Source: Streptomyces roseochromogenus subsp. oscitans DS 12.976 (GTDB lineage Bacteria; Actinomycetota; Actinomycetes; Streptomycetales; Streptomycetaceae). From it: DNA of 64,000 bases. Positions 19,268 through 40,708 of this stretch are shown in pieces (the first letter of the stretch is position 1; the number at the start of each line of letters is the position of its first letter). The notes under the pieces are model-generated. The model was not told where the DNA came from. It did no database searches and saw only the letters and a program-made list of their open reading frames with translations. Location of the stretch: positions 5,589,609 through 5,653,608 of the forward strand of contig NZ_CM002285.1 of NCBI RefSeq assembly GCF_000497445.1, in the 5' to 3' direction. Made by a program: the position numbers and the translations under genes.

Positions 19268-19381
19268 GCCGCTTCTCCTGGTGGTGCAAGGGGGCGGTCG
19301 CGCACTCACCGGCGGTGGCGCGGTCCACGAGGAGAAGTCGGGGCGTGGTCCCCAACACGGCTGACCGTGCGTTCCGTTGGA

Positions 19382-20050: not shown

Positions 20051-20174
20051 CAAGTGGTGTTGCTCCCACGACGGCCCCGCGCCATGGCCGAGTCTACGTA
20101 CGCCAAGGCCCGGCTCTTTGTGGCGGCGGATGGAAGGTGTCGCTGGAGCGGTTCCGCCCGCTCTGGTCGAGCGC

Positions 20175-21664: not shown

Positions 21665-23533
21665 TCAATCCACTCCAGGACGAGATGCCTTCGCAGCGGT
21701 GTGTGCGGAAGACGTGGGAGCGTCTCGCGCTGAGCGATTATCCAGCCTCGGGACAGTCTTGCGGCTGATGATGCGGTTGACCTCTTCCCGAGTGTCACCG
21801 ATCGGGTACCCGGCGTCTTGCAGCATGCGGACGCCGGTTTCCAGTGACAAGACTTCGGCTGAGACCGCTTTGACGACCTCGTCGAGGATCGCAGTCCGGT
21901 CTGTCGGAGTGTGCGGCCCGAATACGAGGCGCGCCGGGTACACGATGCCGGTGGGCCATCCTTCGGCCCCGCCGGCCTGGTGGATGCGCTGCACCATCTT
22001 GAGTAGCAGCGCGTACTTGTGGGCTCTGGCCAGCCGCATCGCGTCGACGAGCGAGTCCAGAGGCGCTAGGGACAGCTGAAGGGCATAGCCGCTGGGAACG
22101 TCGGACGGGTCGAGGGTCCCCAGGCTCACGGCAGGGAGCCGGGCGTTGACAGCCGCACGGTCGCGGATCTCCTCGACACGGGCCCGGAGCTCAGCGAGCT
22201 GCCCGGATGTGTCCAACACGTCCATGCGACCGCCGTCGCCGAGCTGAAATACCGTGCCAGGTTCGATGGACAGTGGCCTGGGGTGTCCGGTAGCACGGTC
22301 GACTTCGGCCCGGGCGCCAGCCAAGCCGATGATCGGCGCGCCGGTGGTGGCCGAGGCCCGCGCGGAATCCGTGTCGGTCTCTGCCAGCTCGTCCAATGCC
22401 TGCATGACCTTGGCCAGGCTGGACTGACCGAAGTGCTCTCCGTCGGCCACCGTGTTGCTGATGTGTACCAGCGGGATGAAGTCGAGCTGGAGATCAAGGC
22501 GATGTAGCACTTCACCGTCGGGTCGGGTGCGGATGTGGGCTTGGTCCAGCGGAAGGTCGTCGAGGCTCTGACCGTGACGTAGGTCATCGAGGAACCATTC
22601 GGCGTCGGTGAGGTAGCACGTCGTCGTCGAGGGCCGATCGGGCGCCCACGGGTACCTGCGCTCGATCCGACCGGACTCCGGCGCGTAGACGTCGCCCGGC
22701 TGAAGCACGTAGTCTCCGGCCTCGTCGACGACAGGATTCCGTGATGTCTGCCCACGGTTGTCCACGGCGCTCCGGGTCGCGGGAGCGATAGGACCGAGCT
22801 CATAGGTGATGCGACGGACACGAGCCTTCGCACCCCGCCTGGGGTCTTCGGGGATCTCCCAAGCCAGATGCACGCGCCGCGGGTAGTCGCCGGGATCAGC
22901 ATCGGCTTCGATGACCGGGAAATAGAAGCCGGGATCGTAAGTCTTGAGCCGAACACGCCCCATCTCCGGATCCCAGGCCAGCAGGTAGAGCGCATCTCCG
23001 AGCAGAACCGCCTTCCGCTCAGCCGCCTGCATCCGCAGCGGCAGCAGCTCCGCCTCGGCCCAGACACGCAGCCGCTGCTGTGCTTCCGCCGCGGCCTCCG
23101 ACTCAGGTGAGGCGTCCTCATCGCGTGCATGCTCGGCTCCGGGCACGGTGATCTGTTGGGACTTGCCCAACAGATGGGTGAGCGCGGTGTCCACGAACGT
23201 TGAGGGATCCCCGAACTCTCGGCGCTCGGAAGCAGCCTCGTTGCCCGTCAAAGCTGCCAGCTCGCCCGCCTGATTGGAGTCATAGGCAGCCAAGAGCTTG
23301 TAGGCAGCCAAGCGGCGCACGGCCTCGTCGGGAAGCCAGCTGGCGTGCAGCTCGGGCCCGAGGGCCCGGTGAGGACGGCCGTCGTGTGTGCCGGCCATTG
23401 CTGGCTTGTAGTTCAGCCATGACCAGGCGTCGGTCAGGAAGGTGCGGAGGCCCACGGGGACAGGTCCGTAACGTCGATCCCGCGCCACGTACAGCGTAGG
23501 TGAGCGAGCCAGTTCCACCTCAAGGGTTGGCAT
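21665..23533 (-). CDS. Phage portal protein
   Basis: A 622-aa portal-like protein, the dodecameric gate at one capsid vertex through which DNA is packaged. Typical features are an N-terminal Leu/Arg-rich wing, a central RLKTYDPGFYFPVIEAD segment, strands with FIPLVHISNTVADGEHFG, and a helical C-terminal part (EELRDRAAVNARLPAVSLGT-like) matching portal stems. It is the only large gene between the dnd-associated block and the scaffold gene. Its 5' end lies close to the divergent methyltransferase gene at 23608, so the defence insertion abuts the portal gene without breaking it. Confidence 0.8.
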   Translation of the reverse strand: MPTLEVELARSPTLYVARDRRYGPVPVGLRTFLTDAWSWLNYKPAMAGTHDGRPHRALGPELHASWLPDEAVRRLAAYKLLAAYDSNQAGELAALTGNEAASERREFGDPSTFVDTALTHLLGKSQQITVPGAEHARDEDASPESEAAAEAQQRLRVWAEAELLPLRMQAAERKAVLLGDALYLLAWDPEMGRVRLKTYDPGFYFPVIEADADPGDYPRRVHLAWEIPEDPRRGAKARVRRITYELGPIAPATRSAVDNRGQTSRNPVVDEAGDYVLQPGDVYAPESGRIERRYPWAPDRPSTTTCYLTDAEWFLDDLRHGQSLDDLPLDQAHIRTRPDGEVLHRLDLQLDFIPLVHISNTVADGEHFGQSSLAKVMQALDELAETDTDSARASATTGAPIIGLAGARAEVDRATGHPRPLSIEPGTVFQLGDGGRMDVLDTSGQLAELRARVEEIRDRAAVNARLPAVSLGTLDPSDVPSGYALQLSLAPLDSLVDAMRLARAHKYALLLKMVQRIHQAGGAEGWPTGIVYPARLVFGPHTPTDRTAILDEVVKAVSAEVLSLETGVRMLQDAGYPIGDTREEVNRIISRKTVPRLDNRSARDAPTSSAHTAAKASRPGVD

Positions 23534-23607
23534 CTGCCGAATCCGCCTCCTCGGCGCCGGGCCGCCGATACCCTCCGCTTGTCACCCGGTTGTACGAGGG
23601 CGCGAAC

Positions 23608-25065
23608 ATGGTGCAGCAAACATGGAACAGTGACCGCAGACTGACCGCGATCAGTCGCGCAGGGCTCTCCGTGCCCGCCCGTCAAGCCGTCCTCGACAGG
23701 CAGGTGACTCCGGGACGCAGTGTCCTGGACTACGGCTGCGGCCGCGGCGACGACGTACGCGCGCTTCAGCGCCTCGACTGCGTGGCCGCCGGCTGGGACC
23801 CCTTCTTCCAGCCGGACGCGAAGATGGAGCCGGCGGACGTCGTCCTGCTTACCTACGTTCTCAACGTCATCGAAGACCCACACGAGCGCCGAAAGACGCT
23901 GCAGGCGGCCTGGAACCTGGCGGGCACGGTGCTCGTCGCCTCAGCACGGTTGACGTGGGAGAAATCGAAGGTCAAGGGCGAGGCCTTCGGCGATGGGCTC
24001 CTCACCAGCCGGCAGACCTTTCAGCACCTCTTCAGGGCAAGCGAGCTACGCGACTACGTCGAGGAAGTCACAGGCGTACGGACAGTCTCCGCTGCTCCAG
24101 GGGTCGTCTACGCGTTCAAGGACGAGACCGCGCGGTTGAGCTACCTTGCGCATCGGATTGTCCCCGACGCTGAGTGGCTCGCTTCAGAAGACACGACCTC
24201 GGCGATCGCGGCTGTCGTGGATCACGTGGAACGCCGCGGGCGCACGCCACGCGTGGAAGAAATGCCACAGCCCATGGCCGAACTCCTCAGCCACTTGCGC
24301 CCCAACGAGCTGAGCCGACTGGTTCGAGACTCCGCAGACCAGGCCAAGGTCGAAGAGGGCGCCAGGCGGTCCACGCTCAATACCCTGCTCTTCCTCGCCG
24401 TCGAGCTCTTCAACGGTCGTGGCCCCTTCGCCAGCCTCCCGTTCAGCGTCCAGCTCGACGTCCGCGCCTTCTTCTCCTCCTACAGGGAGGCATGCCAGCG
24501 ATCCGACCGGCTACTCCTCAAACTGCGCGACGACACCTACGTCCGCGGAGCTATGAACGCCTCGACAGTGGGGAAGCTGACGCCGACCGCCCTGTATGTG
24601 CACCAGCGTGCTGTCGACCGCATGCCTACGGTCCTTCGGCTATACGAGCACTGCGCTTCGATCGCGGCCGGCCGACCTCAGGCATGGACCGTCGCCAAGC
24701 TCCGCCACCAGGGACGAGCTGTTAGCTGGCTGGACTACCCGGACTTCGACACAGACCCCCACCCGCGGCTTCTGTCCTCGTACCAGGTCGACTTGAAGAC
24801 GCTCGAGGCCTCGCACACCTCGTACGCCGAATCTTCGAACCGGCCGCTGCTACACCGCAAACACGAGTTCCTGGCTCCCGACGACGCCGATTCCGAGAAG
24901 TACCGGCGGCTAACGGAGGCAGAAGTAAAGGCCGGCCTGTACGAACATCCCCACCTCATTGGCACAGAGAGCGGCTGGGAAGCGGAGCTGGACCGGTGTG
25001 GTCGAGAGCTGCGTGGTCACCGTCTTGTACGAGCCAAGGCTGATCGTCAGGCTCGGCTGGACTGA
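23608..25065 (+). CDS. DNA phosphorothioation-associated putative methyltransferase
   Basis: A 485-aa protein with a SAM-binding motif near residues 38-47 (VLDYGCGRGDDV), followed by a long helical domain (ALYVHQRAVDRMPTVLRLYE). This combination matches the dnd-linked putative methyltransferase family that is usually encoded beside dndABCDE. Its substrate is unknown; it is not needed for sulfur insertion in studied systems as far as I recall. ATG at 23608 is chosen over an upstream GTG in the portal overlap. Its 3' end overlaps the end of dndA by 19 nt (convergent). Confidence 0.85.
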   Translation: MVQQTWNSDRRLTAISRAGLSVPARQAVLDRQVTPGRSVLDYGCGRGDDVRALQRLDCVAAGWDPFFQPDAKMEPADVVLLTYVLNVIEDPHERRKTLQAAWNLAGTVLVASARLTWEKSKVKGEAFGDGLLTSRQTFQHLFRASELRDYVEEVTGVRTVSAAPGVVYAFKDETARLSYLAHRIVPDAEWLASEDTTSAIAAVVDHVERRGRTPRVEEMPQPMAELLSHLRPNELSRLVRDSADQAKVEEGARRSTLNTLLFLAVELFNGRGPFASLPFSVQLDVRAFFSSYREACQRSDRLLLKLRDDTYVRGAMNASTVGKLTPTALYVHQRAVDRMPTVLRLYEHCASIAAGRPQAWTVAKLRHQGRAVSWLDYPDFDTDPHPRLLSSYQVDLKTLEASHTSYAESSNRPLLHRKHEFLAPDDADSEKYRRLTEAEVKAGLYEHPHLIGTESGWEAELDRCGRELRGHRLVRAKADRQARLD

Positions 25066-26201
25066 AAGCCCGCAATCGTGGACACCAACGCGTCAATGTC
25101 CAGATCCCCCGTTTGGCTGGGGAACCAGGACAGCCTTAGACCATTCTTTGCGGCCTCCTTCGGCAGACCCATGGCAGTGAGGACGTGACTGGGCGTGTAT
25201 GACGCGCTCGTGCATGCAGATCCGGTCGCTACAGCCACTTGCTCCTTGAGCGCGACGATCAGAGCTTCAGCGTTCACCCCTTCGAACGACAGGTTCAGGA
25301 TGTGCGGCACGACGTGGTCCTGGTCGCCGTTGAGGCGAAACTGCGTCTTGCCCAGTGCGCTCAGGAGGCGCGAGCGCAGCTCGGCCGCAGCCTTGAACCA
25401 CACCTCACGTTCACGGTGGAAGATCTTTGCGGCTTCTTCGAGTCCCATGATCAGTGGGACAGGCAGCGTTCCCGGGCGAAGCTCACGCTCTTGCCCGCCG
25501 CCATACATGATCGGCTGCAGCGGTAGATCGTCGAGATCCTCCGTCTGGCGGGTGACAAGCATCCCGACACCCTTGGGAGCGCCGATCTTGTGGCCGCTGA
25601 CACTGATCAAGTCGATCGGGGCGGTCAGGTCCTGCGTGAGCTTCCCATACCCCTGCGCTGCGTCCACATGAAAGAACGTGGGCGTGTCCCGAAGCTGCTC
25701 GGCGAGCTCGACAACAGGCTGGACTACACCTGTCTCGTTGTTGACGTGCATCAGCGACACGAGGAGCGTGTCCGGACGCAGTCGGTCCATCACGGCCGCG
25801 GATGAGACTCGCCCGGTTGGTCCCGGCTCGATGAAGTCGACGTCGAAGCCGCGGGACTGGAGGTGCTGTAGTGGTTCGATGACCGCTTTGTGTTCGATGG
25901 CCGAGGTGATGATGTGGCGCCTACCACTCTCCTCACCGTAGGGAGCGAGACCGAGCAGGGCAATGTTGTTGCTCTCCGTGGCGCCGCTAGTGAAGATCAA
26001 CTCGTCCACATCGGCGTTGAACGTGCTGGCCAGGTACTGGCGCGCTCGCTGCACAGCACGTTTCGCGCGGGATCCGTACTCGTGGGTCCGGCTCCCTGCG
26101 TTGCCGAAGTCCTCCGTCATCCAGTGCAGGACCACCTCTGCAACGCGTGGGTCCACACGTGTGGTTGCTGCTGCATCCAGATACGTCGCCACTAACCCCA
26201 C
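25047..26201 (-). CDS. dndA: Cysteine desulfurase DndA
   Basis: A 384-aa PLP enzyme that would supply sulfur from L-cysteine for DNA phosphorothioation. The PLP lysine is in SVSGHKIGAPKG, the NETG motif in HVNNETGVVQP, and the persulfide cysteine in GSACTSASYTPSH near the C-terminus. Length and motifs fit the IscS/NifS-like group that includes DndA. It is divergent from dndB, the S. lividans-type arrangement, and shares the intergenic control region at 26202-26269. An alternative GTG start lies three codons downstream. Confidence 0.92.
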   Translation of the reverse strand: MGLVATYLDAAATTRVDPRVAEVVLHWMTEDFGNAGSRTHEYGSRAKRAVQRARQYLASTFNADVDELIFTSGATESNNIALLGLAPYGEESGRRHIITSAIEHKAVIEPLQHLQSRGFDVDFIEPGPTGRVSSAAVMDRLRPDTLLVSLMHVNNETGVVQPVVELAEQLRDTPTFFHVDAAQGYGKLTQDLTAPIDLISVSGHKIGAPKGVGMLVTRQTEDLDDLPLQPIMYGGGQERELRPGTLPVPLIMGLEEAAKIFHREREVWFKAAAELRSRLLSALGKTQFRLNGDQDHVVPHILNLSFEGVNAEALIVALKEQVAVATGSACTSASYTPSHVLTAMGLPKEAAKNGLRLSWFPSQTGDLDIDALVSTIAGFQSSRA

Positions 26202-26232
26202 CAGACCTTAGTGCGTCATTCCTGCACATCGC

Positions 26233-26254
26233 GTACGTCTTTTCTCTCACGTAC
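26233..26254. promoter_or_regulatory. Inverted repeat in the dndA-dndB control region
   Basis: GTACGT (26233-26238) and ACGTAC (26249-26254) form a 6-bp inverted repeat separated by 10 nt. It lies between the divergent dndA and dndB starts, so it is a good candidate operator for the whole locus. DndB-family proteins have been described as negative regulators of dnd expression, but a link to this site is my inference. Confidence 0.5.
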
Positions 26255-26269
26255 GATACCGTTGCACGG

Positions 26270-27400
26270 GTGGGTTCATCGTCATCTCTGCAGCTCGCTG
26301 ACACTGCTACGTCGTCTGGATTCGAGTACATCTTTCCAGCCATCCGGGGCATCCAGGCCGGACGTGAGTTCTATGTGTCCATGTGTCCGCTTCGTCTGAT
26401 TCCAAAGATCTTCTTGTTCAATGAGGACGAGCTAGCCCCTGAAGTGCGAGCTCAGCGCGTCCTCAACAAGGGGCGCCTGCCGGCCCTGACTCGCTACATT
26501 GTGGACAATCCGGACGATTACGTCTTCAGTGCTCTTACGGCTTCCGTCGACGGGCCGATGCAGTTCGAGAGCATCTCCGACTCCGGAGTGGGTATGCGGG
26601 TCGGTCAGATCCGGATCCCGATGGCCGCCCGCTTCCTCATCAACGACGGACAGCACCGCAGGGCAGCGATCGAGGCAGCCCTGAAGGAATACCCCGACCT
26701 GGGCGAGGAGACCATCGCCGTCGTCTTCTTTCACGACGCCGGCCTCGCCCGCTGCCAGCAGATGTTCGCCGACCTGAACCGCCACGCCGTGCGGCCGCCG
26801 CGGTCTATCGGGGTGCTGTACGACCACCGCGACGATCTGGCGATCACGGCGCGTCTCCTGGCGATGAAGTCGGCGGTGTTTAAGGGGCATGTAGACATGG
26901 AGAGCAGTACTCTCTCCCAACGGTCCCGAAAACTCTTCACACTCAGCGCCCTCTACTTCTCAACTCAGTCGCTGCTTCAGGGACTTGGGCTCAAGAAGGA
27001 GCCTGCTCAGGAGATTGTGCAGCAGTACTGGGAAGCAGTGGACCAAGTCATCCCTGAATGGGGCATGGTCCGCCGAAGAGAGTTGACAGCACCCGAAGTC
27101 CGCAAGGATTTCATCCACAGTCATGGCATCGCCTTGCATGCACTTGGTCGGATCGGTAACACCTTGCTGAAGGAGTCGCAGGATCCCAAGTCTTGGAAGC
27201 CAAAGCTTAATCGCCTGAAGACCATTGACTGGTCGAGGACCAACTCTGACTGGGAAGGTCGGGCCCTGATCGGGGGCCGCGTGCAGAAGAGTCACCAGAA
27301 CCTGGCTCTGACTGTCAACTATCTCCGTCAGCGCATGAACCTCCGACTCAGCCCTGAAGAGCAGCGCGCAGAAGACGCATACGTACGAGGAGACGAATGA
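26270..27400 (+). CDS. dndB: DNA sulfur modification protein DndB
   Basis: A DGQHR-domain protein (about 376 aa) with the family motif NDGQHRRAAIEAAL near residue 125 and typical flanking segments (EYIFPAIRGIQAGREFYV at the N-terminus). DndB is not essential for modification but influences its level and is reported as a regulator of dnd operons. The start is uncertain: the frame is open to 26147, inside dndA, so GTG 26270 is the likeliest; it is weak in Shine-Dalgarno. Its stop overlaps the dndC ATG by 4 nt. Confidence 0.9.
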   Translation: MGSSSSLQLADTATSSGFEYIFPAIRGIQAGREFYVSMCPLRLIPKIFLFNEDELAPEVRAQRVLNKGRLPALTRYIVDNPDDYVFSALTASVDGPMQFESISDSGVGMRVGQIRIPMAARFLINDGQHRRAAIEAALKEYPDLGEETIAVVFFHDAGLARCQQMFADLNRHAVRPPRSIGVLYDHRDDLAITARLLAMKSAVFKGHVDMESSTLSQRSRKLFTLSALYFSTQSLLQGLGLKKEPAQEIVQQYWEAVDQVIPEWGMVRRRELTAPEVRKDFIHSHGIALHALGRIGNTLLKESQDPKSWKPKLNRLKTIDWSRTNSDWEGRALIGGRVQKSHQNLALTVNYLRQRMNLRLSPEEQRAEDAYVRGDE

Positions 27401-28902
27401 GCATCCCGGCACAGACCGCCGCCCCGTTCCAGGGGCGGAGTCTCTCCGACGTTGTCAGCGAGCTGACTGAGGAAGTTCGCGAGCTCTACACAGCAGACGA
27501 GGTGCCTTGGGTCGTTGGCTACAGCGGAGGCAAAGACTCCACTGCCGTCCTGCAACTTGTCTGGCTTGCCTTGAAGGGGCTGCCTGCAGAGCAGCGCACC
27601 AAGCCTGTCTACGTCATCAGCACAGACACGCTTGTCGAAAACCCTGTGGTCGCCCTGTGGGTCTCCCAGTCCCTCGACACCATGAAGAAGGCTGCTGAGG
27701 AACAAGGACTCCCCATTGAGCCGCACAGGCTTACCCCCAAGGTGGAAGACACGTTCTGGGTTAACTTGATCGGACGTGGCTACCCGGCACCGCGTCCCAA
27801 GTTCCGTTGGTGCACGGAGCGGATGAAGATCAAGCCCTCCAATACATTCATCCGCAAGGTGGTACGCCGGCACGGTGAAGCGATCCTCGTGCTGGGCATC
27901 CGCAAGGCGGAGAGCCAAGCTCGCGCTCGGGCAATGGCCAAGCACGAGAAGCGCCGAGTGCGTGACCGTCTTTCTCCCAACGGCAATCTCCCCAACTCTC
28001 TCGTCTACAGCCCCATCGAGGACTGGACTAACGACGAGGTGTGGATGTTCCTCATGCAGGAAGACAATGCCTGGGGACACGACAACCAGGACCTGTTGGC
28101 GATGTATCAGGGGGCATCCAGCGACTCGGAGTGCCCACTGGTAGTGGATGACAGCACCCCTTCGTGTGGTGACAGCCGGTTTGGATGCTGGACCTGCACC
28201 TTGGTGGACCAGGACAAGTCCATGACCGCGATGGTCCAGAACGACAAGGAGAAGAAGTGGATGCGGCCACTTCTTCGCCTCCGGGACGAGCTGGATGACG
28301 TCTCCAAAGAGGGGGAGACCCGGGACTTCCGAAGGATGAACGGGCGAGTGCAGCTCTTCCACGACGAAGTCATCAGAGGGCCGTACACGCAAGAGGCACG
28401 CGAGAAGTGGCTGCGGAAGCTCCTCGAGGCCCAGACCAAGGTGAGGTCGAGGGCTCCCGAACACGTACGGAATATTGAGCTCATCACAATTGAAGAGCTC
28501 AAGATGATTCGCAGGCTTTGGGTCTTCAACAAGCACGAAGTCGAAGACTCCCTTCCCCGTATTTACGAAGAGGAAACTGGGGAGAAGTTCCCGGATGCAG
28601 ACTTGGATGAACAGCTCGTCATCCGGGCAAGCGAGATCGAACTCCTACGCGAAATTTGCGACGGAGACGAGATTCACTTCGGGATGGTCCGAGAACTCAT
28701 GGGTGTAGACCGCGAGTTCCGCACCAAGACCCGGCGCAAGGGACTCTTTGATGCCTTCGAGAAAGTCATCGAGAAGGGATATTACGAAAACAAGGACGAC
28801 GCGCTAGAGTTTGCTCTGCGTAAGAAGGAAGTCCGTGGTGGCAACGCGCAGACGGAGATCAGCGCCAAGCCCGAAGCCCTCCCCCTCGAACAAGACAAGT
28901 AA
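27397..28902 (+). CDS. dndC: DNA sulfurtransferase-like DndC
   Basis: A 501-aa ATP pyrophosphatase of the PAPS-reductase-like family that activates or transfers sulfur for the DNA backbone. It has the PP-loop motif VGYSGGKDSTAVL near residues 44-56, FRWCTERMKI near residue 138, and cysteines near residues 245-270 (ECPLV, PSCGD, GCWTCTL) that would bind a 4Fe-4S cluster. A DndE-interacting or targeting region probably lies in the C-terminal half. It starts in a 4-nt overlap with dndB and ends 2 nt before dndD. Confidence 0.93.
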   Translation: MSIPAQTAAPFQGRSLSDVVSELTEEVRELYTADEVPWVVGYSGGKDSTAVLQLVWLALKGLPAEQRTKPVYVISTDTLVENPVVALWVSQSLDTMKKAAEEQGLPIEPHRLTPKVEDTFWVNLIGRGYPAPRPKFRWCTERMKIKPSNTFIRKVVRRHGEAILVLGIRKAESQARARAMAKHEKRRVRDRLSPNGNLPNSLVYSPIEDWTNDEVWMFLMQEDNAWGHDNQDLLAMYQGASSDSECPLVVDDSTPSCGDSRFGCWTCTLVDQDKSMTAMVQNDKEKKWMRPLLRLRDELDDVSKEGETRDFRRMNGRVQLFHDEVIRGPYTQEAREKWLRKLLEAQTKVRSRAPEHVRNIELITIEELKMIRRLWVFNKHEVEDSLPRIYEEETGEKFPDADLDEQLVIRASEIELLREICDGDEIHFGMVRELMGVDREFRTKTRRKGLFDAFEKVIEKGYYENKDDALEFALRKKEVRGGNAQTEISAKPEALPLEQDK

Positions 28903-28904
28903 CG

Positions 28905-30896: not shown

Positions 30897-31266
30897 CAGG
30901 ATCCGTCTCTCGAAGACTGCCAAGGATCAGCTGTCATGGCTCAAACGTCACACAGGCATCACTCACTGGAACGTCCTGTGCCGGTGGGCGCTTGCCTTGT
31001 CGCTGCGTGATGAGACCACGCCGTTGGTCAAGGACATCGTCACCGACTCCAATGTCGAGATGGACTGGAAGACCTTCGCGGGAACCATCTATGGTGACAT
31101 CTACCTGGCGCTGCTGAAGCAGCGGTGCCTGGCCGATGGCGAAGAGCCGACGGAGGAGGCCCTCTCCCGCACACTCACCGTGCACATTCACCGCGGGATC
31201 GGCTACATGCACGGTCGTCGTGACCTGAGGAGCGCCAGCGCCTTCGTGGCCGCGGCTCTCCAGTAG
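30886..31266 (+). CDS. dndE: DNA sulfur modification protein DndE
   Basis: A 126-aa small basic helical protein at the end of dndBCDE, the usual size and place of DndE, which binds nicked or duplex DNA in the modification complex. Its N-terminal LDRIRLSKTAKDQLSWLKR and ribbon-helix-like layout fit. AGAGGAG upstream of ATG 30886 is a good ribosome binding site. A bidirectional terminator follows directly. Confidence 0.9.
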   Translation: MSLDRIRLSKTAKDQLSWLKRHTGITHWNVLCRWALALSLRDETTPLVKDIVTDSNVEMDWKTFAGTIYGDIYLALLKQRCLADGEEPTEEALSRTLTVHIHRGIGYMHGRRDLRSASAFVAAALQ

Positions 31267-31271
31267 CGAAC

Positions 31272-31309
31272 GGCCTGGCAGGGACGCACAGGAGCGTCCT
31301 TGCCAGGCC
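31272..31309. terminator. Bidirectional terminator between dndE and the MORC-like gene
   Basis: Two 16-nt arms (31272-31287 and 31294-31309) pair with a single G-T wobble around a 6-nt loop, lying between convergent transcription units. Confidence 0.85.
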
Positions 31310-31338
31310 TATGCGTGGATCAGAGGCCGGTTACGGCG

Positions 31339-33075: not shown

Positions 33076-33530
33076 GTTCCGCTCCTATTCTGTGCGCTTT
33101 GTGTCTGGCGAAGGGCCCGAGCCCAGGCTGCTCGGACAGCCGGCTCGGGGCAGAAAGGACAGCGTTGCCCAGTCCCTGAAGGGCTGGCCGGGTGGATTTG
33201 GTTCGCTATGGGGCGGCCTGAGGACAGGCATCGGTGGTACCAATACGACGCGATGGCGTACGCCTGGAGCGAGTTGCGAGCCGGTGCAGCAACGAAGTGG
33301 GTGGCGACGTCGGCCAGGGGGTGACGGATGAGGCGGCTGCGCAGACAAGTGTCCGACCGCCCTACGAAGAGCGGGCGAACGGTCTCCGCGCAGTGGCGTA
33401 GCAGTAGGTACGCGCCCACGGTTCTACTCGGGATCTGTAGGTTCACGACAGCACTCGTGTACCGAAGGGTGAGTCGTGCGCCCCGGTACGGATCCGCGAT
33501 GCGGATCGTGAACTCTGCGCCTGAGCTCAC
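33072..33530 (-). CDS. GIY-YIG-like nuclease domain protein
   Basis: A 152-aa protein starting at GTG 33530, which overlaps the stop of the upstream HTH gene by 4 nt; the frame extends further upstream but that translation is noise. GAYLLL and LFVGRSDTCLRSRL are the two strands and conserved Tyr/Arg pattern of a GIY-YIG nuclease, with FVG in place of YIG. A following helix ends in YWYH, and a cysteine pair (CPFC) lies near the C-terminus. A catalytic Glu equivalent could not be fixed, so it may be divergent or inactive. It is directly coupled to the MORC-like ATPase. Confidence 0.6.
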   Translation of the reverse strand: MSSGAEFTIRIADPYRGARLTLRYTSAVVNLQIPSRTVGAYLLLRHCAETVRPLFVGRSDTCLRSRLIRHPLADVATHFVAAPARNSLQAYAIASYWYHRCLSSGRPIANQIHPASPSGTGQRCPFCPEPAVRAAWARALRQTQSAQNRSGT

Positions 33531-34060
33531 GAGTTGATTCCAGCGAGGGACTGGGCGTGCAGCCGGATCGCACGACGAGTTCGTTCTACCGTCGCGATGG
33601 AGACACCCGTCTGCTTGGCAGAGGCCGATGCCGGCACGCGGTCCAGCATGCCCTGAAGACAACCAAGGCCATGGGCTCCAAGGCCCGCAGCAAACTCCCG
33701 CAGCTCCCGGAACGTCTCCTCTGCGATTGCCCAGGCTTCAGGCGAAGCCTGGGTGACCATCTCAGCAGTAGGCCGGCCATCGTTGGTCAGCGTGCAGACG
33801 CGTCGGCGAGCGGCATCAGCGAGAGGCCGGCACGCAGCAGCCTCACGGGAGCTGGCTGCCGACCGGTGAAGCGTACGTCGTGCGTCACGGATGACGTTGC
33901 GGCACAGGTAAGCAGCGTTGTCCGCCGCCCGCTTGTGACCGAGAGTGAGATCAAGCGCCGTGTCGAGGAGGTCTTGCCATTCCCCGTCCCACGGCCGTTG
34001 TTCCTGCTTCTGGTACAGGCGTCGCATCACGGAGACGCGGACGTCATCGAGCTGGAGCAT
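33527..34060 (-). CDS. Sigma-factor-like HTH protein
   Basis: A 177-aa protein with a C-terminal helix-turn-helix like sigma-70 region 4 (SASAKQTGVSIATVERTRRA near residues 145-165) and an N-terminal helical region without clear sigma region 2. It is the first gene of the operon with the GIY-YIG-like and MORC-like genes, so it may be its regulator. The start could be either of two adjacent ATGs (34063 or 34060) after a GGGGAGGGG stretch; the second has better spacing. A sigma-like HTH within a defence operon suggests a dedicated switch. Confidence 0.55.
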   Translation of the reverse strand: MLQLDDVRVSVMRRLYQKQEQRPWDGEWQDLLDTALDLTLGHKRAADNAAYLCRNVIRDARRTLHRSAASSREAAACRPLADAARRRVCTLTNDGRPTAEMVTQASPEAWAIAEETFRELREFAAGLGAHGLGCLQGMLDRVPASASAKQTGVSIATVERTRRAIRLHAQSLAGINS

Positions 34061-34442
34061 CATGCCCCTCCCCGGTGCCCGACTGCTGTGTGCCGGACCC
34101 ATGTGGTCGTTGCCTGCTCTCCCTTTGGCCGTCGTCGCCTGGCGGTCGACTTGGCATGAGCAGGTGCTTGAGACTGTAGAGCGCATGACTGACAGCCGGC
34201 GCTCGATTCGGTCTCATACTCAATGGGACAGCCCAGGCATGCATCCCCTCACGTTCAGGCCAACTTCCTGAGGAACCGGCCTCGTTGGTGCTGTGACCTG
34301 CTGGTTCATAAGCGGCAGCTGGGTGCGGGGCACGCCAAGTCGTGGCTGTCAGGCGTTAGATGGGACTGGAGATGCCATCGGCAGGGGCCGCGGCTCCCGC
34401 CCTGCATGGTGCAGGCGTGGCGGGAGCCGCTGGTAGGACGAG
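34061..34442. other. Gene-free interval between the two minus-strand defence operons
   Basis: It is expected to hold the promoter of the HTH/GIY-YIG/MORC operon on its left side and the terminator of the PLD-helicase operon at 34390-34430 on its right. No open frame here looks coding. Confidence 0.6.
34390..34430 (-). terminator. Hairpin terminator after the PLD-helicase operon
   Basis: Perfect 12-bp arms GCGGCTCCCGCC (34390-34401) and GGCGGGAGCCGC (34419-34430), just downstream of the stop of the 157-aa gene at 34443. Confidence 0.8.
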
Positions 34443-34916
34443 TCACACGGTCGGGACGAGCGTCGTGTCGAGGTTTTGCTTGAAGATGCGGAGGAACGTC
34501 TCGAGGGAGCGCGGTCTGTCACCGGAAAACCACTCGAGAAGAACGTCGTAGCCCCCGTGAGCGTACTGGTTGAAGTGCTTGACCCCTTCGTCGCTCAGGT
34601 TATGGGGTGCCGTCGGGTCGACTAGTTTTGCGATCGAGGAGTGGACGACCTTCTTCTCGTTCATGGTGACCCCGAGAATTTCTAGCTCTTTTGCCAGGAA
34701 CAGCGCGACGAGCAGTTTTCCCCGGTCTGTATATCGACCTGGAAAGCTCGCCACGAGTTCCGGCGCGTGCTCGTTTGTGATGTGCAATTTTCGCGACTTG
34801 GAAATCCCTGCAATGAAGCAGAAATAGAAGATGTCGAAGTCAATCTTGAAACTATCGTCCTCCCTGAGGTCTTTGAACCAATTGCGAGCGTCTTTCCTGA
34901 GACGGAAAGGCTGCAT
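34443..34916 (-). CDS. Dnd-island protein of unknown function (157 aa)
   Basis: The last gene of the four-gene minus-strand operon, starting exactly at the end of the SMC-like gene (1-nt overlap). It has a compact, mixed alpha/beta sequence: DFDIFYFCFIAGISKSRK, then VALFLAKELEILGVTMNEKK and a C-terminal KHFNQYAHGGYDVLLEWF. It resembles small proteins that occur only in dnd gene clusters, but I cannot name a family. Composition is AT-richer than the neighbours. It may be an adaptor for the ATPase. Confidence 0.65.
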   Translation of the reverse strand: MQPFRLRKDARNWFKDLREDDSFKIDFDIFYFCFIAGISKSRKLHITNEHAPELVASFPGRYTDRGKLLVALFLAKELEILGVTMNEKKVVHSSIAKLVDPTAPHNLSDEGVKHFNQYAHGGYDVLLEWFSGDRPRSLETFLRIFKQNLDTTLVPTV

Positions 34917-36877
34917 CAGGCCGCCTCCTCTACCTGGAATTTATTGAAAAATGATTCGCCGCGGACAACAATCCCGTCAAGGGTTTCCGTATGGTTCGGA
35001 GTGGTTCGCGCGTCTTCGATCAGCTGCTCATCAGCCTTCCGGAACAGCGTGATGAACTGCACCTTGCCCCCGCAGGCTTGCTGGAGATTCGGTACGAACT
35101 GGTCGCGCTCCGAGGAGATGGTGAAGGCGATGAACTGCCGTGTGAGTTGAGGGATGAGGGGACCGATCCTGGAGCGATTTGCCAAGTCGATGGAGTTGGC
35201 CGGGCTGTCGACAATGAAGGGAAGCTGATGCTCAGAGCGGTTGAATAGTGAAGCTAGGAATGCGTAGGCCACAGAAAGGTTCTCGCCGACACTTCCACCT
35301 TCCTTCCCGTCAAGCACGAGACACTTCTCGATACGCATAATACGAATGTTATTATGAGGCAGCAATTCTGTGATCCGCTGGTTTGCGGCGTCACAGACTT
35401 CGTCCAAGATGCCCCTGCGGGCAGTCTGATAGGCCTCCCTGAGGATCCTTCTCAGGACGTCGCGCTTGCGCTTGAGGATAATCGTCTTGGTGATTTCGGC
35501 GACGTCGTCTTCTGCAGCCTTGACGCGTTCTGCGAGGATATTCACATCGCGCGTGTTTTCGGCCGTGTCGCCATTGGTGTATTTATCAAGGTTCCTGGCG
35601 ATGCCCGCTAGCTCCGCTTCCAGTTTTTTGATTTCCTCGCTGGCTTCCCGGACGGCGGGATCGGCTTGTTCCGCAGCCCTCTGGAGAAGAGCGACTTCGT
35701 TTCGAGCGTCCCGTTCGTCGTGCATCGCCTCACCGAGGGAATGCAGTTTGTCGCGGAGCTGCTCCTCGGCGGTCTCGTGAGATTCACCGACTGCATCCTG
35801 GATGGCCGTCTTCATCGAGTTAAGGAGGATGACATCGTCCGAACCCAGGTACTGCTCTGCGCGGCTATGAATTACATCCCTTACGTGATCGTCAATGGGT
35901 CGCCCGCAAACGCAGAATTCCTCCTGCGCGAGTTCGGTAAAAAACTCGCGAGCTGCACTCTCTGGGAGCTTGACCCGATCAAGGCCAATCTTAAGCTCAT
36001 GGAGCCTCTTCGCGAAGATGGGTGACAGGGCGTTCGGGGCCCGCATGACATCAAGGATGTCAAGAGACTCCTCGCGTACGCGACTCTTCAAGGATGCGAC
36101 TTCTTCCTTGTGAGCCTCTAGTTCTTGTGCCCGTGAATTTTCCTTACTGATCTCCTGCTCGTACGTGGCGTGCTGCTTCTGAAGCCGGCCTGAGGTTTCA
36201 TCGCGATCACGCTCTAGCCGCTCTTTCTCTGATTCGCACTTAGCCAGGCGCTCCTTCAGTTTTTCTAGCTTGTTCTGGCGTCGCGTGAGGGCTATTTCCT
36301 CGGTCGCCGACTTCTTGGTGAGTTTCTCCCAGTACTCGGTTACCTTATCTTCGAGTTTCTTGAGGGTGCCAACTTGGAAAAGGTCCTCTACGAGCTCCTC
36401 TGCCCGCAGATGCTTCTCATCCAGGAGTCGCTCTGCCAGCTCTCCGTCGAAGACAAATGCCTCCACGAAGGTTTCGCTCATGAACCTCCGGAATTCGTAA
36501 GGGGGTTCAAAGCCATCCACCTGTCCTTCGCCACGCGTGGTCTTGTAGCGAACCCGAGATGTTTCGAAGTCGAAGTTCATGATGATGGTGACCCGCTCGG
36601 AACCAAGCATGAGCCGTACTTCGAAGGCTCCGTGACTCTGATCGCTCTCGAGTTTCCGGTACTTCATCGTCTCCGAGCCGTCCCAGCTGCCATTGGCAGC
36701 AGAACCTGACAGGGCGGCTCGAAGGAGATTAAGTGTCGTCGTCTTGCCCGTCCCGTTGGGCATCTGAATTAGAGACACCCTGTGAGGATCGTCCCCCGCC
36801 TCCCGGAAGTCGATCTCGTGATCTGGACACCGAAGCCCATCAGCTTTCCAGCCGAGGATCTGCATTACAGCAGACAT
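34916..36877 (-). CDS. SMC/DndD-like ATPase of the putative restriction operon
   Basis: A 653-aa RecN/SMC-type ATPase: Walker A QMPNGTGKTTTLN near residue 45 and long coiled coils in the middle. A CVCGRPI pair near residue 345 resembles a zinc hook. A signature-like GGSVGENLSVAYAFL and Walker B LPFIVDSPANS lie near residue 560. It is a second SMC-like ATPase besides dndD and may be the motor or clamp of the restriction complex. Its ends overlap the flanking small genes by 1 nt, so the operon is tightly coupled. GC content is clearly lower than in the phage genes around it. Confidence 0.8.
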   Translation of the reverse strand: MSAVMQILGWKADGLRCPDHEIDFREAGDDPHRVSLIQMPNGTGKTTTLNLLRAALSGSAANGSWDGSETMKYRKLESDQSHGAFEVRLMLGSERVTIIMNFDFETSRVRYKTTRGEGQVDGFEPPYEFRRFMSETFVEAFVFDGELAERLLDEKHLRAEELVEDLFQVGTLKKLEDKVTEYWEKLTKKSATEEIALTRRQNKLEKLKERLAKCESEKERLERDRDETSGRLQKQHATYEQEISKENSRAQELEAHKEEVASLKSRVREESLDILDVMRAPNALSPIFAKRLHELKIGLDRVKLPESAAREFFTELAQEEFCVCGRPIDDHVRDVIHSRAEQYLGSDDVILLNSMKTAIQDAVGESHETAEEQLRDKLHSLGEAMHDERDARNEVALLQRAAEQADPAVREASEEIKKLEAELAGIARNLDKYTNGDTAENTRDVNILAERVKAAEDDVAEITKTIILKRKRDVLRRILREAYQTARRGILDEVCDAANQRITELLPHNNIRIMRIEKCLVLDGKEGGSVGENLSVAYAFLASLFNRSEHQLPFIVDSPANSIDLANRSRIGPLIPQLTRQFIAFTISSERDQFVPNLQQACGGKVQFITLFRKADEQLIEDARTTPNHTETLDGIVVRGESFFNKFQVEEAA

Positions 36878-37095
36878 CAGAAGATACCCCCACCATCTCG
36901 ATTGACGTCATCCACTTCAGTGCTGCTGAATAGAAGCTCAAGTCGACGATCTGTGTCGCTTGAATCGTGCAGATCCTCACTACCGGACGTAACCGCCTCC
37001 ATCCACGTGATCAGCCGGTGTGCCAGTGCCGGTTCCTGCTCCGAGTTGGCAACTGCTTCCCTGATCGCATGGCTAATCTTTAGGTCAAGGCTCAT
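36877..37095 (-). CDS. Small acidic-tailed protein (72 aa)
   Basis: A short helical N-terminus (SLDLKISHAIREAVANSEQE) and an acidic tail with DLHDSSDTDRRLELLF. It is wedged between the helicase (4-nt overlap) and the SMC-like ATPase (1-nt overlap), so it is a genuine operon member. It may be a stabilising or inhibitory partner of the restriction complex; no family recognised. Confidence 0.65.
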   Translation of the reverse strand: MSLDLKISHAIREAVANSEQEPALAHRLITWMEAVTSGSEDLHDSSDTDRRLELLFSSTEVDDVNRDGGGIF

Positions 37096-39002
37096 GCGGG
37101 AGTCTCCTTGTGCCGTAGGGCAGCCATCTCTGCGAGCCAGTCTGCCCGCTCCTGATCAGAATTCTGGGCCTCGCCGTCAGAGTCGCGAACGAAATCGACG
37201 ACATTCGCAATCTTCTGAGGGTTTGCTGGATCAGACCGAAGGCATCTACCAATCCGCTGAATAGTCTCCAGGCGAGCCCGTGCTGAAGAAAACAGAATAA
37301 CGGTATTGAGGGACTGGATGTCGATCCCCTCCGAGAGCCTATGGCAGGTGATCAAACATTGCAGATCACCCCGAGCGAATCGGCTGAGAGTCGATGAATT
37401 CTGCGCCGTGAAGTAGGTGTGAAAGTCAGGCCGGTACTTGTGAACGATGCTCAGTACCTGCCTCCCATATTCCTGAGTCTCGACGAAGATGATGCAGCGT
37501 TCCAGCAACTCTTGATGGGATGCAATGAATTCGTCGAATACGGGAAGCTTGGCCGGGGACGTCTTGTGGACCTTGGCCAACTCGATCCAGACTTCTTCGT
37601 CCCTCATCGGGTTGCCGGCGGCAGCCCTGGCCGCCTGCCGCTTGTACACGTCCCGCATCCGTTCGCGGTCCTGCTGCGTCAACTCGTACGGCAAAGGATG
37701 GTAGTTGAAGGGAGCGAGGATCCCACGCTCGATTGCGTCACTCAGCTCGAACGACATCAGCACCGGACCGATGTGCTCCTCGATGAACGCGTTCCCCTCC
37801 TCGTCGTACTCGCGATCCGGCGTCGCGCTCAAGCCCAGCCGGAACCGCACTTCGTCGGACAGGCCTGTTAGCCGCTGCCTCGTTCCTGGGCTGCCAAGCC
37901 GATGAACCTCGTCGTGGATGAGTAGTGTCCTTCGGGCCGATCGGCGGTCCAACTGCCGAAGAGCCGACGCAAGCGGATCACGGCGCTCGTCGCCGCGGCG
38001 TGAGACCAGGAGGATGCGTTCTCGTGTCGACAACGAGAACTCCTGCAACTCCTTGTGAGCCTCGTAGTCTCGGTACACGTGTGGCGACCGCCCCAGCTGA
38101 CGCCGGGTGGACAGCAGCTCGTTGTACCACTGATCCAGGAGATCGGTGCCGTCCATCGCGACGATGACGTTGTCGATGTCTCCAGCGTCAAAGAGCGCCT
38201 TCGTGATCTTCAGCGCGGTCCGTGTCTTGCCCGTGCCGGTGGCCATGTTGAGGACGCCGCGTTCCGAGGAGAGGAAGATCCGTAGTGCTTCCTCTTGGTG
38301 GCGCCACTTGTCACTTCGCGGCCTCGGCGTGCCCGTTTGAGCACGAGCATGGTAGGCCTGCAAGAGCCTCTGCCTGGCTGCCTCCGGGAATGAGTAGACC
38401 TCGACGCCGATGTCTGTGCCGGCCCACACCTGCTCGAAGTGGCTGCGCTTGCGCTCCGCTCGAATCGGCGACTCCCATGCCGTGAAGACGTCTATGCATT
38501 CACGGTTCTGTTCAAAGGCGCTGCGTGATTCGTTCGAGGACCCACTGAACGCGACGTATTCGCCATCGTTGTCGAAGAACAGGCCGATCTTCTCGTGGTA
38601 GATGCCGGATCCGTGCTTGGGGACGGCAATACGGATCTCCAGTCGTCCCAGTTCGAGTAGACGGCTGAGACGCGCGACACCTGTCCCCATGCCGTCAGTG
38701 AAGTCCTCTTCGACGATCTGCTGGAGTCGCTGGGCGCAGACCGTCTCCTTGGAGGCTCCTTCGGATATTGCCTTGAGGTCCGTTTCAGTGAGTTCGACGC
38801 TTGTTACCAAGCGGATCTTTCCGCCGTTCATGACGAACTCGCCGAGCGGGGAACCGAAGGATTCCAACGCGGTGCTTGAGAAGTAGCCGACCGCCCGCCA
38901 GTATGAGCTGGCCTCTCTGAGCGAAGGGCGGAAGAACTCCTCGACGAGGTTGTTGTACCCGGAGCGGTAGTCCTCCTGGTACTTGATACTCCTCAAGGCC
39001 AT
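37092..39002 (-). CDS. PLD-nuclease plus DEAD/DEAH helicase, putative Dnd restriction enzyme
   Basis: A 636-aa fusion that matches the dnd-linked restriction-enzyme family I know as a PLD/helicase fusion. A phospholipase-D-like nuclease motif near residue 140-165 reads HEKIGLFFDN with a following GSSNESR, giving H-x-K and G-S-x-N. A superfamily 2 helicase then shows Walker A MATGTGKTRTAL near 253, DEVHR near 350, SATP near 377, and motif VI QRIGRCLR near 600. It would unwind and cut DNA lacking phosphorothioate. It is first in a four-gene operon that includes the SMC-like ATPase and ends next to the large terminase gene. Confidence 0.82.
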   Translation of the reverse strand: MALRSIKYQEDYRSGYNNLVEEFFRPSLREASSYWRAVGYFSSTALESFGSPLGEFVMNGGKIRLVTSVELTETDLKAISEGASKETVCAQRLQQIVEEDFTDGMGTGVARLSRLLELGRLEIRIAVPKHGSGIYHEKIGLFFDNDGEYVAFSGSSNESRSAFEQNRECIDVFTAWESPIRAERKRSHFEQVWAGTDIGVEVYSFPEAARQRLLQAYHARAQTGTPRPRSDKWRHQEEALRIFLSSERGVLNMATGTGKTRTALKITKALFDAGDIDNVIVAMDGTDLLDQWYNELLSTRRQLGRSPHVYRDYEAHKELQEFSLSTRERILLVSRRGDERRDPLASALRQLDRRSARRTLLIHDEVHRLGSPGTRQRLTGLSDEVRFRLGLSATPDREYDEEGNAFIEEHIGPVLMSFELSDAIERGILAPFNYHPLPYELTQQDRERMRDVYKRQAARAAAGNPMRDEEVWIELAKVHKTSPAKLPVFDEFIASHQELLERCIIFVETQEYGRQVLSIVHKYRPDFHTYFTAQNSSTLSRFARGDLQCLITCHRLSEGIDIQSLNTVILFSSARARLETIQRIGRCLRSDPANPQKIANVVDFVRDSDGEAQNSDQERADWLAEMAALRHKETPA

Positions 39003-39169
39003 GGGTGACGGGCACTCCCTTCAGACATGAGCGCACCAGCACCACCTGGGTGTCCTCCGTACGCTGGACTTCGTCCTTAAGGATGCCAGGGGGTTGGCCT
39101 GATGCGCCGGGCTACGGCTGATGATGCCTCACGGCAGTCATGTCAGAGGCTCAGCGAGCCGTGGGAGTG

Positions 39170-40708
39170 CTACCTGCGACGGGTGAGCCTCTGGTCCCGG
39201 TATGCGGACGGGGCCTGCTCGGCCAGTCGTGGGCTGGCGAGCTCGGTGAGGGAGTGCACCGCCGCGTCCATGCGGTCCGGACTGTCCATGCCGGCTACCC
39301 AGGTCACCATCTGCTGCTCCAGCACTGGCCATTCGCCGACATGGTGGACGCGGCCCTGCTCGTAGAGCTGTGCGATCGGCTCCGCCCGCAATCTCTTGCC
39401 ATGCTTCGCCGTGACCGACACAACAGCGGGCATCAGGAGGTTCTCTGTGCGTTTCTCGCCCTGGAGCTCCTGCCAGGCTTGATAGAGGATCTGACGGGAC
39501 ATGTCGCCGCCGTAGTTGCTTTCCACCACGATCGCATCCGCGCGCAGTTCGATCGCCAGCAGGCACGTCTCCCGCCCCCAGTCACCGGCCCCACGGTTGC
39601 CGGACCGGTCGTCGAGGACGTACAGATGACCGTCACGATCCGAGGCTGCGGCCACGATGCCGGTCTCGTCACCGACCGCGGACTCGCCGCCGGCCGGGTC
39701 GACAGCGACCACAATGCGCGTGAGATCGATGCCGCGGAACTGCCCGGCGCTGATGCGGTTGTTGGTGATCCACGGCCACTGCCACACACCGCCGTCCTGC
39801 GGGCGCGGCTGCTGCATGTACAGGCTCCACCAGACGCGTTCGCCAACCGAGCGGCGGATCTCAGCGAGTGCATCGGCGTCGTACCGCTCGGGCCACAGCG
39901 GCGCGCCCACAGTGCGGCCGAGAGCGTCGTCCTCGGACAGGGCCAGGGCGGGCAGGTCGATGACCGTCCACCGGTCGCCTTCCTCGGCGAGGACCCGTCC
40001 GGCGAGGTCGTCCTCGTCCCAGCGGGTCTGGATGAGGATCACTGAGCCGCCGGGCTCGATACGCGTCAGCAGGACGGCCTGCCACCACTCCCACAGCCGC
40101 TTCCGCATCGTGGGCGAGGAGGCCTCCGCGGCATCCTTGATGGGGTCGTCGACAACGGCCAGGTGGGCGCCCTTACCGGTGAGGCCACCGCCGACGCCGG
40201 CCATGACCGCGCCGCCCTCTGTACCGACGAGGTCGAACCGGTTCGCGGCGGATGAGCCGGGTCGCAGGTTGATGCCGAGCTGTGGGCCGTAGGTGAGGAT
40301 CGCGTCCCTGATCCACCGGCCGTGGTCGTCGGCGAGATCGGAGGAGTAGGAGGCGATCATCACCCGGTGCTCCGGGCGGCGGCGCAGGTACCAGAGGGGC
40401 GCCCACCTGGCGGCGCGGCGGCTCTTGCCGTGCCGGGGCGGCATCGTCAGCAGCAGCCTCGTCGGCTTGCCGGCAGCGACCTGCTCAAACGCGGCATCGA
40501 TCAGCCCCAGGTGCGGGGCCTGCATCTCCCGTCCGTCAGTGAGGACCGCCGCCATCGCGCCGGGAGAGCGGTCCATCGCCAGCTCGCGTTCGACACGGAT
40601 GAGCTGCGCGCGGAGCTCAGGGGTGGAGGCTGCGGCGATCTCACGACGGCGCTGCGCGGGAAGCGTCCGGTAGAGCCGGAGAACCGCAGCCTCGTCAGGC
40701 CTCCCCAT
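39170..40708 (-). CDS. Phage terminase large subunit
   Basis: A 512-aa DNA-packaging motor. The N-terminal ATPase has Walker A MPPRHGKSRRA near residue 88, Walker B HLAVVDDP near residue 180, and a coupling motif SVILIQTRW. The C-terminal nuclease has the first aspartate in IVVAVDPAGG near 305, followed by DDRSGNRG and FDLVGTEGG-type segments. The gene overlaps the small terminase by 14 nt. It is separated from the portal gene by 15.6 kb of defence genes, whereas in phages these genes are normally adjacent. Confidence 0.9.
   Translation of the reverse strand: MGRPDEAAVLRLYRTLPAQRRREIAAASTPELRAQLIRVERELAMDRSPGAMAAVLTDGREMQAPHLGLIDAAFEQVAAGKPTRLLLTMPPRHGKSRRAARWAPLWYLRRRPEHRVMIASYSSDLADDHGRWIRDAILTYGPQLGINLRPGSSAANRFDLVGTEGGAVMAGVGGGLTGKGAHLAVVDDPIKDAAEASSPTMRKRLWEWWQAVLLTRIEPGGSVILIQTRWDEDDLAGRVLAEEGDRWTVIDLPALALSEDDALGRTVGAPLWPERYDADALAEIRRSVGERVWWSLYMQQPRPQDGGVWQWPWITNNRISAGQFRGIDLTRIVVAVDPAGGESAVGDETGIVAAASDRDGHLYVLDDRSGNRGAGDWGRETCLLAIELRADAIVVESNYGGDMSRQILYQAWQELQGEKRTENLLMPAVVSVTAKHGKRLRAEPIAQLYEQGRVHHVGEWPVLEQQMVTWVAGMDSPDRMDAAVHSLTELASPRLAEQAPSAYRDQRLTRRR

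Follow-up and report, generated by a model that had tools for sequence, protein, structure and literature searches.

The window analysed here, 64,000 nucleotides of Streptomyces roseochromogenus subsp. oscitans DS 12.976 (C1:5589609-5653608, within a 9.78-Mb genome), carries the packaging and head genes of a phage-related element together with a DNA modification cassette of the dnd type. As a preliminary description of this DNA had claimed, a dnd island lies between the portal and terminase large subunit (TerL) genes, in a block of 15.6 kb (Table 1). In window order the block contains a methyltransferase gene, the divergent dndA, dndBCDE, a gene for a GHKL-type ATPase with two small genes, and an operon resembling pbeABCD. 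The terminase large subunit, portal, scaffold, decoration and capsid genes all have open reading frames (ORFs) on the minus strand, which bears out the statement that portal, terminase, scaffold and capsid look intact. The first ATG in the portal frame is at 23533, and an alignment of 15 relatives places the start of conserved coding at the GTG at 23455; the portal gave no match in the PDB.

Table 1 Features of the window in element order, with strand and basis of assignment (aa, amino acids)
Feature	Position	Strand	Basis
Tyrosine integrase, one element end	58437..60338	+	Phage_integrase 3.8e-17; S. regalis copy 79%
Recombinase-domain protein, element core	57126..58061	-	PF07508 4.8e-07; kept in relatives
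ParB-like protein 1, element core	51418..52368	-	PHROG 4715; relatives
ParB-like protein 2 (ParB2), element core	45197..45865	-	Domain and PHROG matches; relatives
ParB-methyltransferase fusion, element core	43764..45200	-	Relatives
Conserved core gene g39	43232..43759	-	Relatives
Methionyl-tRNA synthetase-like, in variable g39-g37 gap	41339..42868	-	N-terminus by eye, no search; L102 copy 76%
Conserved gene directly before terminase	40695..41243	-	PHROG 645; candidate small terminase by position alone
Terminase large subunit	39170..40708	-	Terminase_6N/6C; PHROG 38, 355 bits
pbeA-like, PLD nuclease domain and SF2 helicase	37092..39002	-	PADLOC PbeA 959 bits; PLDc_2, ResIII
pbeB candidate, 72-aa ORF overlapping both neighbours	36877..37095	-	Size and position only
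pbeC-like coiled-coil ABC ATPase, CVC (Zn-hook type) motif at residue 322	34916..36877	-	PADLOC PbeC 57 bits
pbeD candidate, 157 aa, overlaps pbeC end	34443..34916	-	Size and position only; no Pfam or PADLOC match
219-aa protein, beside dnd in four other genomes	33527..34186	-	Conservation
196-aa protein, beside dnd in four other genomes	33072..33662	-	GIY-YIG-like by eye alone; no Pfam match
GHKL-type ATPase	31339..33075	-	HATPase_c_3; PADLOC MzaB-like 47 bits; G106 copy beside dnd 80%
dndE	30886..31266	+	PF08870 142 bits
dndD	28905..30896	+	PADLOC DndD 690 bits; Walker A, no CxC
dndC	27397..28902	+	PADLOC DndC 669 bits
dndB	26147..27400	+	PF14072 457 bits
dndA cysteine desulfurase, sole cysteine Cys330	25047..26201	-	PDB 3vax 617 bits
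Methyltransferase of dnd cassette	23608..25065	+	Adjoins dndA in other dnd loci
Promoter-like motif before portal, slot boundary	23480..23504	-	Relatives' alignment, pattern, profile
Portal, 596 aa from conserved GTG at 23455	21665..23455	-	PHROG 64, 55 bits
Small ORF in second slot (portal-scaffold)	20203..20730	+	35-56% conserved, close relatives
Scaffold protein	19382..20053	-	PHROG 2303
Head decoration protein	18839..19309	-	Family and PHROG matches
Major capsid protein E	17793..18842	-	185.9 bits; 97-98% in S. regalis
Conserved core gene g18, after capsid	17205..17750	-	Relatives

The block encodes the components by which Dnd phosphorothioate (PT) modification is recognised, DndA/IscS, DndC, DndD and DndE, with their catalytic features, although the dndD product scores higher with a PADLOC model labelled PbeC (786 bits) than with the DndD model (690 bits). 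The first start codon of dndB overlaps dndA, so the true start is probably further in, and we assign the methyltransferase gene to the dnd cassette because it adjoins dndA in each of the 20 further dnd loci fetched, out of 21 other genomes with a strong DndB match. The preliminary description had spoken of dnd and nuclease genes; the dnd part stands, while the restriction half looks like a predicted PbeABCD operon. Excerpts of published work, the basis for all literature comparisons made here, describe such an operon as a PLD nuclease-helicase, a small protein, a CxC ATPase and a DndE-like gene (PMC6459918, PMC10853773). The operon in the window resembles that of the DndCDEA-PbeABCD system (PMC6459918; rectified to CxC-DndE system, PMC10853773) in having a pbeA-like gene, a small ORF, a pbeC-like gene with a CxC motif and a gene for about 150 residues, in the same order and beside dnd. 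Unlike that system, the window locus includes dndB, has dndA in divergent orientation and is extended by a methyltransferase and a GHKL-ATPase module; its pbeB and pbeD are candidates by size and position (PbeB and PbeD of H. jeotgali have 66 and 152 residues; PMC6459918). DndF, DndG and DndH were not among the PADLOC matches listed for nine cassette proteins (the best 25 for two of them), a scan confined to the cassette and made without the 196-aa and 219-aa proteins and the methyltransferase. Per kb, the GC fraction of 25001-39000 is 0.55-0.65, whereas the flank at the portal end has 0.64-0.67 (5 kb) and that at the terminase end 0.68-0.71 (4 kb).

Judged by its genes, the dnd-bearing element appears to be an integrated relative of the Streptomyces plasmid-phage ZL12: its terminase, portal, scaffold, decoration, capsid and tail genes have homologues there in preserved order. 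The tail module is outside the window, at about C1:5518154-5536748 and 70.7 kb beyond the capsid gene, and with it the reading of the element as head-only, a satellite lacking a tail, was dropped. ZL12 (NC_013420; TerL 59.6% identical, 90.4 kb) is the nearest phage record, and related terminases occur in 43 Streptomyces plasmid records, with 63-67% identity in the 15 matches listed. ZL12 and phage-plasmids such as pSLE1 and pCQ3 share the head and tail order seen here (TerL 60-67%); pZL12 has been termed a well characterised plasmid that shares phage particle protein genes with pSLE1 (PMC4487206). Among the matches listed, replicons of this type are mostly 85-94 kb (one is 151.9 kb), with terminase-portal gaps of 0.56-3.9 kb in the five that were opened, whereas the element studied here is chromosomal, has an integrase and spans at least 131.8 kb. 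In two phage-plasmids, pCQ3 (L186, 20001-22628) and H29, the terminase genes are apparently interrupted by an HNH-type endonuclease segment.

When 200 genomes of the same family were searched with the terminase, 31 of them had a match at E <= 1e-20, and a scan of one genome from each of 84,980 species found 47 loci, whose titles all name Streptomyces, Kitasatospora or Actinobacteria bacterium. The order common to the relatives, some of which are without some core genes, is integrase, recombinase, ParB1, ParB2, ParB-methyltransferase, g39, g37, terminase, portal, scaffold, decoration, capsid and g18. Across 40 relatives the identities of TerL and portal to the window copies are correlated (rho 0.81). 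Terminase and portal keep their order and orientation in relatives where the gap between them is as short as 26 bp. We also looked for repeats flanking the block alone, which the preliminary description had named as the finding that would speak against a single element: between 23001-27000 and 36501-40000 there is no direct repeat longer than 12 bp and no inverted repeat longer than 13 bp. The shared order, the correlated divergence and the lack of longer direct repeats together indicate that the block is cargo of one element, carried inside a packaging locus as first proposed. The same observations make it extremely unlikely that terminase and portal come from two unrelated integrations with dnd caught between them, a history that the 15.6-kb distance and the presence of dnd genes on both strands might otherwise suggest.

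The placement had looked unusual, but it is no singular oddity, for the gap recurs as an insertion site. We surveyed 62 sequences (31 of the 47 named loci, 26 regions from individual genomes and 5 phage or plasmid records), 52 of which gave a terminase-portal gap. Left out were L103, L107 and L113, which are longer as G341, G342 and G343; L116, L117 and L119, which equal G036, G115 and G081; and L114, L131, L136, L138, L140 and L143-L147, which have no portal match in reach, except for L144 with a weak portal match 1429 bp from a two-piece terminase. Counted were G141 with broken portal copies, G021 with two portal matches and G110 with a terminase split over two frames. The gap ranges from 26 bp to 23.9 kb with a median of 1364 bp, and exceeds 1 kb in 31 elements and 3 kb in 14. 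Neighbouring core gaps stay closed: the largest values are 277 bp for scaffold-decoration (n=40), 114 bp for decoration-capsid (n=41), 165 bp for ParB2 to ParB-methyltransferase (n=30) and 112 bp from there to g39 (n=33), the capsid-g18 gap never exceeds 500 bp (n=40), and g37 and TerL have a median gap of 30 bp (n=55) with a single case above 1 kb (2776 bp). Two further gaps are variable, portal-scaffold (above 1 kb in 16/40, maximum 9.4 kb) and g39-g37 (above 1 kb in 17/33, maximum 11.8 kb). In IMG/VR, where 77 loci drawn partly from the same genomes gave 72 gaps and flanks end at 10 kb so that larger gaps such as that of L231 go unseen, the terminase-portal gap exceeds 1 kb in 23/72, compared to 0/50 for each of scaffold-decoration and decoration-capsid. 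The terminase-portal gap is thus a recurrent cargo slot in a family of prophages and phage-plasmids of Streptomyces and Kitasatospora.

The cargo of this junction, which has conserved flanks and a high turnover of unrelated genes, includes known antiviral systems. Searching for terminase and portal genes that flank dnd, as the preliminary description had suggested, recovered one further case, the S. regalis element, and other gaps hold other cargo (dnd in 2 of 52). In the S. regalis slot (17.4 kb), dnd is accompanied by a distantly related GHKL ATPase (32%), by a protein carrying an Mrr-type restriction domain and by further genes. The 17.6-kb slot of genome G080 encodes Cas3e, Cas8e, Cas7e, Cas5e, Cas6e and Cas1e of type I-E together with two arrays (39 and 77 repeats); the small gene that follows cas1 was taken as cas2 by eye, and no Cas11 was identified in this slot. 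This CRISPR-Cas locus (L048:600-17420), inside a prophage packaging locus, has 113 spacers, and one of its arrays has a duplicated spacer block. The G155 slot has LmuB of Lamassu, and LmuA and LmuC, with one match each in a pooled set of 64 slot proteins, presumably sit beside it. An AbiJ-like protein (33 bits) is encoded in the L109 slot, and the L121 slot has a Ymh match with weaker PD-Lambda-3_B and Aga HEPN matches.

Two kinds of slot protein recur: proteins of 367-409 aa in L121, L122, L141 and L144, of which the L121 copy has a Hypoth_Ymh (HEPN-like) C-terminus, and proteins of about 700 aa (L123:12046-14145, L129:11734-13833 and L137:3192-5297), of which the L123 copy matched nothing in Pfam or PADLOC. 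In the variable gap before the terminase, a methionyl-tRNA synthetase-like gene, recognised by eye, is present in two elements, the window element and L102 (1554-3068). At 8514-11075 of the window, within the capsid-tail cargo region, a gene for a class II (D/K/N) tRNA synthetase, 85% conserved in the S. regalis element, lies beside an asparaginase-like gene (by eye), and at 12231-14645, after the capsid gene, an nSTAND3 NTPase with a PADLOC PDC-S73 match is a candidate defence gene.

A DndB-domain match was found in 91 of 394 family genomes, 22 of them at E <1e-120, and among the 21 of these 22 that were opened (all but G020) the window genome alone has dnd between terminase and portal, by homology to the window copies. 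The two dnd occupants of the slot do not share a simple history. In a tree built on DndA-E sequences concatenated for 21 loci, the window cassette groups with G106 and G489 and that of S. regalis with G115 and G481 (support 100 for each); single-gene trees of DndD and DndC also place S. regalis with G481 and G115, and the methyltransferase tree is weakly resolved around this placement. In G115, dnd is 1.1 Mb from the terminase. A single cassette inherited by both elements was rejected as a simple story by the Dnd tree. The capsid, terminase and portal of the two elements are 97-98%, 89% and 83% identical and the portal-methyltransferase junction aligns between them, so the differing Dnd lineages indicate that the occupant was either replaced in place or inserted twice at the same site. 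The closest dnd cassette (GHKL ATPase 80%) is in a more distant element of the same kind, G106:C55 (L195, L219, L220).

The junction on the portal side has a feature of its own. Upstream of the portal, 15 close relatives have mostly unrelated sequence; conservation sets in only about 50 bp from the start codon, with a promoter-like motif about 43 bp ahead of the start that follows the pattern TANN[CG]T[GA]-N2-9-GGCG[CT]GGG. Of 51 relatives, 46 have the motif before the portal, including ZL12, pCQ3 and pNBC_01422; those without it are G199, G085, G126 and the S. decoyicus and NA02950 (pNA02950) plasmids. Over all elements the pattern matched 71 times, 51 times before a portal copy, 15 before scaffold, once before ParB2 and 4 times elsewhere (one of these in the window element, beyond the last tail match), with no match on the minus strand of 2.47 Mb. 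A motif profile gave 68 hits (47 portal, 17 scaffold, 1 ParB2, 3 other), with only the portal hit in the window and S. regalis elements, and in the IMG/VR set 90 hits were divided into 68 portal, 16 scaffold and 6 other. Because its position, TANNNT core and repeated use fit, we read the motif as a putative phage-specific promoter, and G126, which has no motif and a gap of 26 bp, fits this reading.

We therefore consider it likely that an integrated ZL12-type phage has a defence hotspot here, upstream of a promoter-like motif belonging to the portal, and that the block is cargo that can be exchanged at this hotspot. With a promoter of its own for the portal, the terminase-portal gap would separate two transcription units, so insertions upstream of the motif would be tolerated. 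DndA and DndBCDE would add sulfur to the DNA backbone throughout the lysogen, including that of the prophage, and the PbeABCD-like operon with the GHKL-ATPase module would act on unmarked incoming DNA, so that the lysogen, and hence the prophage, would be protected from competing phages. Other family members may protect likewise through CRISPR-Cas or Lamassu. That the PT system is active and protects against phages is what we infer from the gene content.

The spacers of the sibling in G080, which match portal and tail genes of other family members, lend support to the earlier suggestion that the block may arm the host against competing phages. Spacer B15462 shares 32/33 letters with the S. himastatinicus element's portal and 29/33, 28/33 and 28/33 with those of the S. 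decoyicus plasmid, L134 and L132, and spacer A2721 matches a tail-region gene of the Streptomyces sp. NBC_01422 phage-plasmid in 31/33. At least 24 letters are matched by 5/113 spacers compared to 0/113 reversed controls, and the G080 element itself, apart from its arrays, is matched in at most 22 letters. A further spacer, A1072, has 25/29 letters in the G155 terminase (L041:19436-19464), a weaker match than that to the portal.

Several observations weigh against this interpretation. The motif pattern was built from regions upstream of the portal, so its enrichment there is partly circular (the scaffold hits are not), and no -35 box was seen by eye near it. It precedes the scaffold in only 15 of the 40 elements having one, and not in the window or S. 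regalis elements, and neither the pattern nor the profile search found it in the variable g39-g37 gap. Many relatives are close kin, so the gap counts are not independent events. In the large slots of S. natalensis (23.9 kb) and S. olivoreticuli (21.7 kb) the genes are metabolic or regulatory, encode transposases or are of unknown kind; when these slots are pooled with that of S. regalis (55 proteins), the families represented include NUDIX, HAD, methyltransferase, phosphoketolase, transposase and beta-lactamase-fold proteins. Six of ten scanned slot proteins (two of L123, and those of L127, L128, L108 and L105) have no PADLOC or Pfam match, and the dnd cassette of G106 is inside a related element but before the terminase. 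At E <= 0.01 there are 28 spacer matches, and reversed spacers give 11, so that chance accounts for many of the weak ones. The G080 arrays have no match in 50,697 phage records, and the protospacer flanks have no consistent protospacer adjacent motif.

Alternatively, the prophage might be decayed and no longer viable, and the dnd block a defence island of the host that was inserted in this remnant by chance. The distance between the integrase and the last tail gene matched is 131.8 kb in the window element and 122.6 kb in that of S. regalis, compared to 50-77 kb in five other elements (two clipped by the fetched stretch), and this span, with 70.7 kb between capsid and tail, speaks for decay. 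Nor did the element ends show attachment repeats: matches between the integrase-side and far flanks reach only 14 bp, with no direct repeat of at least 15 bp against 100 kb of the far side, and a search with the integrase-side flank matched 150/150 genomes, mostly over a stretch interpreted as a cold-shock gene, and yielded no empty site. Terminases are broken in some relatives, and 4 of 12 genomes searched gave no portal match. However, the virion genes of the window and S. regalis elements have no stops within the compared stretches, and their ratios of non-synonymous to synonymous substitution (dN/dS) are 0.095 for TerL, 0.092 for portal, 0.031 for capsid, 0.19 for scaffold and 0.18 for the tape measure gene (integrase, 0.33). 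Five virion genes are thus under purifying selection between two elements of 120-130 kb, which argues against long decay, and the recurrence of cargo at one gap in many elements, with neighbouring core gaps closed, also counts against a chance landing. We regard decay as rather doubtful.

Dnd could also serve the phage itself: PT would label phage DNA to be packaged or to enter restricting hosts, and defence of the host would be secondary. A modification module between packaging genes would suit this, and a PT-modified archaeal virus escapes PbeABCD (PMC6459918). Against it, dnd occupies few of the gaps, others have CRISPR or Lamassu, which leave DNA unmarked, and DndC relatives occur in only 4 of 50,697 phage records, all below 60% identity, and on one IMG/VR contig (77%), which also carries the terminase locus L231. 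This use of dnd therefore seems very unlikely. The only dnd-bearing Streptomyces plasmid opened, H38 (138.6 kb), is typed conjugative, and the 37 kb viewed have dndC and no annotated phage genes.

As regards the earlier suggestion that the element might modify its own packaged DNA, the span of 131.8 kb, compared to 90.4 kb for ZL12, makes packaging of the whole element uncertain. The largest members, at 132 kb (window) and 123 kb (S. regalis), exceed the 90-kb ZL12 yet retain selected virion genes. A speculative extension, which we think quite unlikely, is that these elements are phages turned swap-body carriers, in which promoters before the portal, and often the scaffold, mark loading bays for exchange of immune systems among siblings, and the largest members spread cargo by packaging segments rather than the whole element, as chromosomal islands with their own capsids.

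The nearest published description, as far as the text excerpted goes, is that of the P2/P4 hotspots (PMC9122126, 2022), likewise a variable locus between two conserved phage genes, portal-adjacent in P2, with unrelated antiviral systems. Those hotspots are about 1-5 kb, beside cos, in E. coli phages and satellites, whereas the Streptomycetaceae slot is between terminase and portal, reaches 23.9 kb, has a promoter-like boundary motif and is accompanied by further slots before scaffold and g37. A survey of actinobacterial prophages reports R-M, Abi, Lamassu and CRISPR systems (PMC10023795), but in the excerpts gives frequencies by genus, does not describe the terminase-portal slot; the word 'dnd' is counted 0 times in the paper. 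We found no description of this slot in the open-licence literature, the scope searched.

A PT system inside a prophage contrasts with the strong negative correlation reported between dndBCDE and prophages in Streptomyces (PMC8569181). The slot mapped here is one where whole antiviral systems pass between phages of antibiotic-producing bacteria, and a private portal promoter offers a testable explanation of how late genes could withstand insertions as long as 24 kb. Several occupants of 1-3 kb have no match, and the slot may be mined for unknown defence genes.

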